Source: Gemmatimonadetes bacterium SCN 70-22 (lineage in GTDB: Bacteria; Gemmatimonadota; Gemmatimonadetes; Gemmatimonadales; Gemmatimonadaceae). From it: 64,000 bases of DNA. Positions 40,050 through 41,112 of the stretch are shown here, in pieces. The stretch covers positions 95,230-159,229 of the forward strand of contig MEDZ01000003.1 of assembly GCA_001724275.1 (NCBI GenBank), written 5' to 3'. Numbering within the stretch: the stretch's first letter is position 1; each line of letters opens with the position of its first letter. The notes beneath the pieces were generated by a model. The model was not told where the DNA came from and searched no databases. It was given only the letters and a program-made list of their open reading frames with translations. Both the position numbers and the translations under genes were made by a program.

Positions 40050-40607
40050 TCAGTTCCCCGGCTTCACGATCTCGACCTCGAGCGAAATCTTGACGTCCGG
40101 CGCCACCACGAGCCCACCGGTCTCGAGCGCGGCATTCCAGGCCAGCCCGTAGTCGAAGCGATTCAGCTTCCCCGTGGCGCTGAAGCCCGCGCGATCCATC
40201 CCCCAGGGATCACGGAGCATCCCGTGCGACTCGGCGGCGAGGGTGATCTCCTTCGTCGTGCCCCGGATGGTGAGGAGTCCCACGATCGTGAACGCGTTGT
40301 CCTTCCCGGGGGTGATGCTGGTGCTCTTGAAGGTGAGCGCCGGGAAGCTCGCCGCATCGAAGAAGTCCGGCGACTTGAGGTGCGTGTCGCGCTGCTCGTT
40401 CCTCGTATCGATGCTCTCGATGGGGATCTCGACATCGATGGACGCCGTCGACAGGTCCGTTCCGTCGAACTGGACCGTTCCCTTGACGTCGGAGAAGCGA
40501 CCCTTGACCGTCGCGACCATCATGTGGCGAACGGCGAACTCCACGTGCGAGTGTGCGGCGTCGATGGACCAGGTAGCGAGGCCGGGTTGCGGGGCGATGG
40601 CAGTCAT
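40050..40607 (-). CDS. YceI family protein
   Basis: A 185-residue lipocalin-like YceI protein starting MTAIAPQPGLATWSIDAAHSHVEFAVRHM. Markers: the opening SIDAAHSHVEFAVRH, VKGRFSDVKGTVQFDGTDL, IESIDTRNEQRDTHLKSPDFFDAA and the closing strand VKISLEVEIVK. Family members bind polyisoprenoid lipids; this one has no signal peptide, so it is probably cytoplasmic. A strong Shine-Dalgarno AAGGAG precedes the ATG at 40607. Expression is probably controlled by the divergent HxlR-type repressor through operators that flank its promoter. Confidence 0.93.
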   Translation of the reverse strand: MTAIAPQPGLATWSIDAAHSHVEFAVRHMMVATVKGRFSDVKGTVQFDGTDLSTASIDVEIPIESIDTRNEQRDTHLKSPDFFDAASFPALTFKSTSITPGKDNAFTIVGLLTIRGTTKEITLAAESHGMLRDPWGMDRAGFSATGKLNRFDYGLAWNAALETGGLVVAPDVKISLEVEIVKPGN

Positions 40608-40700: not shown

Positions 40701-40715
40701 CTTACTTCTGGTAAG
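40701..40715. promoter_or_regulatory. Proximal HxlR-type operator
   Basis: CTTACTTCTGGTAAG, an imperfect palindrome CTTA-N7-TAAG, covering about -4 to +11 of the predicted yceI transcript. It shares the pattern CTTAnTTnnnGTAAG with the site at 40751, exactly 50 bp away. Confidence 0.65.
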
Positions 40716-40717
40716 AG

Positions 40718-40746
40718 AGTTTACAGCACACGTCAATTATTGTCAA
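40718..40746 (-). promoter_or_regulatory. yceI promoter
   Basis: On the minus strand TTGACA (40746-40741), a 17-base spacer and TAAACT (40723-40718) form a good sigma-70 type promoter. The predicted start near 40711 gives a leader of about 104 bases. Confidence 0.7.
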
Positions 40747-40750
40747 GTCG

Positions 40751-40765
40751 CTTATTTCATGTAAG
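40751..40765. promoter_or_regulatory. Distal HxlR-type operator
   Basis: CTTATTTCATGTAAG, the same palindrome as at 40701, lying directly upstream of the yceI -35 box and 8 bases before the hxlR-type gene start. Confidence 0.65.
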
Positions 40766-40773
40766 TTCATAGC

Positions 40774-41112
40774 ATGATCGAATCGCACACGCGTCCGCTG
40801 TGCCCTCGCTTTCATCGCGCCGTGGAGTTGATCGGCCGGCGCTGGACGGGAGCGATCCTCCGGGTGCTACAGGGAGGGGGCGCGCGCTTCGGCAGTATCG
40901 CGGCGGCGATCCCCGAGATGAGCGATCGGATGCTCGCCGAGCGGCTCCGTGAACTCGAACACGAGGGGATCGTCACCCGGAACGTGACGGCAGGGGGATC
41001 GCCACACGTGGAGTACGCGCTCACGGAGAAGGGGCGCGCGCTGGACGAGACGTTCTGCGCCATCGCCCGCTGGGCGGAGGCCTGGGGCGACGACCCGCGT
41101 GGAGGTGGTTAG
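40774..41112 (+). CDS. HxlR family transcriptional regulator
   Basis: A 112-residue winged-helix repressor of the HxlR family: CPRFHRAVELIGRRWTGAILRVL, then FGSIAAAIPEMSDRMLAERLRELEHEGIVTRN, the recognition helix and wing (HVEYALTEKGRAL). The cysteine in the N-terminal LCPRF is the one often used for redox or electrophile sensing in this family (for example YodB, HypR). It is divergent from yceI and is its likely regulator. There is no Shine-Dalgarno sequence; a possible promoter (TTGTCA, 16 bases, TAAGTT) would start transcription on the ATG itself. Confidence 0.93.
   Translation: MIESHTRPLCPRFHRAVELIGRRWTGAILRVLQGGGARFGSIAAAIPEMSDRMLAERLRELEHEGIVTRNVTAGGSPHVEYALTEKGRALDETFCAIARWAEAWGDDPRGGG

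Follow-up and report, generated by a model that had tools for sequence, protein, structure and literature searches.

What protein reads the two palindromes that bracket the promoter of the yceI gene, and is it the product of the HxlR-type regulator gene that lies divergently beside them? The window, by which we mean the whole 64,000-nucleotide stretch that was analysed, carries the following features at this locus.

40050–40607, minus strand: yceI, 185 aa, with its ATG at 40607 and a Shine-Dalgarno-like AAGGAG upstream.
40701–40715, strand not given: site C, putative operator palindrome CTTACTTCTGGTAAG, from an exact pattern match and homologous pairs.
40718–40746, minus strand: yceI promoter, sigma-70-type, TTGACA-17-TAAACT, with hexamers conserved in homologous pairs.
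40733–40747, minus strand: site M register, a third, degenerate position (CTTGAC...) overlapping the -35 and scoring 4/10 at the window locus.
40751–40765, strand not given: site A, putative operator palindrome CTTATTTCATGTAAG, from a 9/10 consensus match and homologous pairs.
40774–41112, plus strand: hxlR-type regulator, 112 aa, Pfam PF01638, with Cys10 at the position of YodB Cys6.

Two palindromes at the yceI promoter

The yceI promoter consists of a -35 TTGACA (40746–40741), a 17-bp spacer and a -10 TAAACT (40723–40718). With 10/12 matches its hexamers are near consensus, and it is, as predicted from sequence, a strong promoter. Both 15-mers reported in the first-pass annotation were recovered where it had placed them, flanking this promoter with their starts 50 bp apart. 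Site C lies just past the -10; because it begins 2 bp downstream of that hexamer it covers the predicted yceI transcription start, as had been claimed. Site A, which had been said to abut the -35, is indeed near it on the upstream side, but does not touch it, a gap of 4 bp intervening. The regulator gene does begin 8 bases beyond this second palindrome, which ends at 40765, with its ATG at 40774.

The pattern common to the two sites, CTTANTTNNNGTAAG, is found twice in the 64-kb window at up to one mismatch, against no occurrence in 100 shuffles, and has exactly two exact matches, sites C and A, in the searched genome of 4,697,473 bases. Comparison of relatives gives CTTAC-N5-GTAAG as the real consensus, with half-site centres 10 bp apart within one palindrome; the TT at positions 6–7, common to sites A and C, was rejected as part of the motif, being without conservation in relatives. 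Allowing one mismatch, this consensus occurs at four places in the genome, namely sites A and C and two further ones, and in six relatives it occurs at 1 to 21 places each.

Conservation of register in homologous pairs

Homologous loci were drawn from three sources: 179 family genomes, of which 25 gave a match at E ≤1e-20; 395 phylum genomes, of which 28 did so at E ≤1e-22; and a species-level genome collection, from which the best 80 of 252 loci were taken. L001 and L002 were dropped as the same place as L003. A divergent yceI within 800 bp was present at 42 listed loci. Three of these share their intergenic DNA with another locus (L057 with L004, L059 with L033, L094 with L012) and were removed before counting, leaving 39 distinct pairs, while L058, L071 and L079, where yceI is further off or not divergent, were left out. 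The 39 pairs comprise 3 from the genus of the window, 20 from the rest of its family and 16 from elsewhere, the latter mostly in records titled Chloroflexi, Thermomicrobiales or Dehalococcoidia; overall they represent Gemmatimonadota and mostly Chloroflexota-titled records. Sites were scored as matches to the ten bases of CTTAC-N5-GTAAG, in registers anchored on the yceI hexamers.

The motif search in homologous hxlR/yceI pairs that the first-pass annotation had proposed shows the palindromes to be conserved, site C most of all. At exactly 2 bp past the -10, 32 of the 39 listed pairs score at least 7/10, compared with 0.28% of background windows (3/3 in the genus, 16/20 in the other family members and 13/16 elsewhere); in the remaining 7 of 39 a site of this quality is absent from the register. 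After clustering at 80% HxlR identity the count is 27/33, while no offset other than the named registers exceeds 4/33. When base-pair symmetry alone is scored with the -10 as anchor, the peak falls at the C register, with 3.58 of 7 pairs as compared with a mean of 1.84 (sd 0.39) over offsets. With the -35 as anchor, the top offset is -4 (3.36 of 7) and the C register comes second (2.91); the peak at -4 corresponds to the -35 region, where CTTGACAAG comes close to being self-complementary.

The register of site A, which precedes the -35 by 4 bp, is occupied at 7/10 or better in 15 of the 39 listed pairs, distributed as 3/3 in the genus, 0/20 in the rest of the family and 12/16 elsewhere. Register M, which takes the -35 as its left half, reaches this score in 13/39 listed pairs, 2 of the 10 matches being built in by the TTGACA anchor, and register B, in the spacer and -10, in 6/39. 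These counts indicate that site C is the constant element, and that the second site moves.

The yceI promoters of L011, L012, L035 and L037, all of one genus, have a weak site C, and direct repeats like AGTTACTTATCTA extend across their spacers and the region of the start, giving the impression of a rebuilt array.

At rather less than even odds, these registers could reflect a promoter grammar held across phyla, in which a quinone-sensing DUF24 repressor acts on the gene of a quinone-binding lipocalin through one site fixed at 2 bp past the -10 and a second that can move, lying either 4 bp before the -35 or in the -35 and spacer, with the -35 box CTTGACA-N3-GTAAC/G serving as half an operator. 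Under such a grammar, RNA polymerase and the repressor would read the same letters.

Origin of the 50-bp spacing

The first-pass annotation interpreted the 50-bp distance as five helical turns, allowing cooperative binding on one face or a small loop. That the spacing is itself functional, with two dimers on one face cooperating or looping over the promoter, gains something from its recurrence at 50 or 51 bp in the 14 listed pairs in which both A and C are good, and from the paired sites beside an FMN-reductase-type gene at L060 and L073, which are also 51 bp apart. However, the distance varies with the promoter. Nine of the 14 pairs combine a 17-bp spacer with a 50-bp spacing and four an 18-bp spacer with 51 bp, so that spacing tracks spacer length in 13/14; the exception is L082, where an assigned spacer of 18 bp goes with 50 bp. 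The 18/51 combination is also seen at L060, L061, L064 and L073, loci at which yceI was not found and of which L060 and L073 have a divergent gene of FMN-reductase/flavodoxin type. Since the A–C spacing follows spacer length, each site appears tied to its own hexamer; such an attachment predicts 50 with 17 and 51 with 18.

The geometry also argues against phasing: with 10.5 bp to the turn, a distance of 50 bp amounts to 4.76 turns and leaves the two sites about 86 degrees out of phase; five turns would require 10 bp per turn. Furthermore, the family outside the genus keeps site C (16/20) without site A (0/20), and the proposal of one face or a small loop is not supported. Helical phasing was rejected as the main cause of the spacing, which follows spacer length, and a function of the distance as such is unlikely, though the two dimers may still cooperate. 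Promoter geometry, and not helical phasing, can thus be the source of an apparently exact 50-bp spacing.

The regulator and its proposed mode of action

The regulator matches Pfam PF01638 with 92.2 bits (cut-off 20.8) over profile positions 1–88 of 91, and its nearest solved chain is YodB, 5hs7 (E 6.4e-21). Its C10 aligns with YodB Cys6 and is invariant, at 112/112 homologues among the matches listed. Nearly as constant is the segment SDRMLAERLRELE, with D51 in 111/112 and R52, L54 and R57 in 112/112 of the listed matches; this near-invariance fits a single operator motif across phyla, and by analogy with YodB and QsrR the segment probably reads DNA. The best reading of the sequence is that of a YodB-like redox repressor.

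A second, C-terminal Cys at the position of YodB Cys101 is absent from the window protein, which has no Cys after residue 95. Without this counterpart the YodB disulfide switch could not be copied exactly, and modification of C10 by a quinone, or its engagement in a mixed disulfide, seems likelier than the YodB pair. The protein (40774–41109) does have C95, a residue placed differently from YodB Cys101 and present in only 3 of 39 listed yceI-linked homologues, those of the window genus; C95 could pair with C10.

The YceI product scores 169.4 bits against Pfam PF04264 (curated cut-off 23.7), has TT1927b, 1wub, as its nearest solved chain, and shows no evident signal peptide when the sequence is inspected by eye. 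YceI lipocalins are described in PMC9113575, as excerpted, with octaprenyl compounds or ubiquinone-8 as ligand, and by analogy the ligand here may be an isoprenoid or quinone.

We propose the following mechanism. An HxlR/DUF24 dimer would contact two successive major grooves, reading CTTAC in one and GTAAG in the other. On site C it would cover the start region just past the yceI -10, and on site A it would sit beside the -35 and ahead of the start codon of hxlR; dimers on both sites together would shut the yceI promoter, while hxlR would be repressed mainly through A, probably with C. Modification of Cys10 by an oxidant or electrophile, for which a quinone is a plausible candidate, would release the dimer, and YceI would be made. 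Such a circuit would produce a quinone or isoprenoid carrier upon quinone or thiol stress. By analogy with characterized DUF24 proteins, we give a quinone or thiol signal an even chance. Taking the Cys chemistry of DUF24 proteins and the ligands of YceI together, a quinone/thiol sensor that switches on an isoprenoid-quinone carrier is the most economical interpretation. In this way a redox or quinone sensor would be connected with a YceI lipocalin, which suggests what switches such genes on; no report of HxlR-type control of a YceI gene was found in the limited literature searched.

The opposite polarity, with the regulator an activator and site A its activating site, would suit a site A placed shortly before the -35, and Bacillus subtilis HxlR is named a transcriptional activator in the PDB. 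It is nevertheless quite improbable: the most conserved site, C, occupies a repressor position over the start region, the yceI -35 and -10 are already near consensus, and among solved chains the regulator is nearest to the repressor YodB, with HxlR a much weaker match (E 7.5e-10).

Repression of yceI by its neighbour would probably be accompanied by self-repression of hxlR, judging from the position of the sites. No hxlR promoter was found convincingly: among divergent candidates sharing the -35 region, scored at the 39 listed loci, the -10 has on average 3.13 matches, versus 2.75 in shuffles. Autoregulation is accordingly argued from site position. One candidate in the window, TTGTCA-16-TAAGTT (40740–40767, plus strand), has a poor -10 and no clear conservation; it would start hxlR transcription from the gene's own ATG, giving a leaderless message, with a -35 region in common with yceI. 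No Shine-Dalgarno-like stretch was seen by eye before the hxlR ATG.

Do the sites belong to the adjacent regulator?

As the palindromes are located in yceI promoters, they could be a general feature of these promoters that is read by another protein. A control set of the 30 best-scoring family yceI loci, 8 with hxlR adjacent and 22 without, speaks strongly against this. A site of at least 8/10 lies upstream of yceI in 6 of the 8 with hxlR and in 0 of the 22 without (hypergeometric 4.7e-5 for these best 30 loci, the eight hxlR-adjacent ones not being independent of the 39 pairs, among which they are also counted). The sites are thus conserved where the regulator gene is present and absent where it is missing. 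Moreover, the same palindrome accompanies related hxlR genes that have neighbours other than yceI: a site of at least 9/10 is present upstream of hxlR (at least 48% identity) at 28 of 73 such listed loci and absent at the other 45, these 73 including duplicates such as L054/L103 and L055/L106. Upstream of distant HxlR paralogues it occurs in 0 of 18. We consider a general yceI element very improbable. Sites arising by chance have a negligible probability: AT-rich intergenic DNA often contains short palindromes, but the only two exact matches in the genome both lie at the yceI promoter, and a register fixed across phyla already refutes this explanation.

The same arrangement in relatives of another phylum makes the palindromes very probably docking sites of the neighbouring regulator. 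We estimate the probability that sites A and C are operators of the adjacent HxlR-type protein, as predicted from comparative sequence evidence, at roughly 0.8, and the claim to that effect in the first-pass annotation stands as a prediction strongly supported by conservation in homologous pairs. The window genome encodes one full-length HxlR-domain protein and one weak match (25.8 bits). For a large clade of HxlR-type regulators, the analysis supplies a testable operator, CTTAC-N5-GTAAG.

Among the loci without yceI, 20 upstream reading frames were scanned; DoxX, FMN reductase, nitroreductase, HlyD-type and phenol-degradation-type genes were among them, and several of the 20 gave no family assignment. 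L054, L055, L103 and L106 have a perfect CTTACCCTTTGTAAG directly before hxlR, located 22 bp ahead of the hxlR match; it is a possible autoregulatory site, and at L054 a phenol-degradation-type gene (PF13557) lies immediately before it. In L101, L085 and L115 (Paenibacillus, Thermoflavimicrobium), the region upstream of hxlR carries CTTGACAAAAGTAAG over TTGACA and a second palindrome 31–33 bp further along, an arrangement close to registers M and C at yceI. The DoxX neighbour was tested in L101 and L085, and in the DoxX-linked L101 one site lies 2 bp past the -10 and another on the -35.

Comparison with known systems

On the target side, the window YceI belongs to PF04264 together with the YceI lipocalins TT1927b, BcnA/BcnB and meningococcal GNA1030, with TT1927b the closest solved chain.

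On the regulator side, the extract of PMC6798810 describes YodB, CatR and QsrR as DUF24 repressors that respond to quinones via an N-terminal Cys. YodB, the quinone and diamide repressor of Bacillus subtilis, is the closest solved relative and shares the N-terminal Cys in an MCP/LCP context and a palindromic operator. It differs in its target, azoR1, and in also using Cys101. Its palindrome is given in PMC8063818, in the portion available, as TACT-N7-AGTA, read in two successive major grooves. The window sites, CTTAC-N5-GTAAG, do not conform to that formula; TAC/GTA cores are common to both, but they are 5 bp apart at the window and 9 in YodB.

CatR at catDE of Bacillus subtilis resembles the window locus in that a DUF24 repressor has two boxes within a single promoter. 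According to the part of PMC6212828 consulted, the catDE promoter has YodB and Fur boxes in addition to the two CatR boxes, in which it differs from the yceI promoter. QsrR of Staphylococcus aureus, a DUF24 quinone sensor acting via one N-terminal Cys (PMC6798810, extract), is less similar to the window protein (E ~2e-10), and its targets are reductases and dioxygenases; a QsrR–DNA structure is mentioned in the same portion of PMC8063818. Set beside these systems, the yceI/hxlR locus is, as far as sequence can indicate, a further case of HxlR/DUF24 repressors at redox-related genes.
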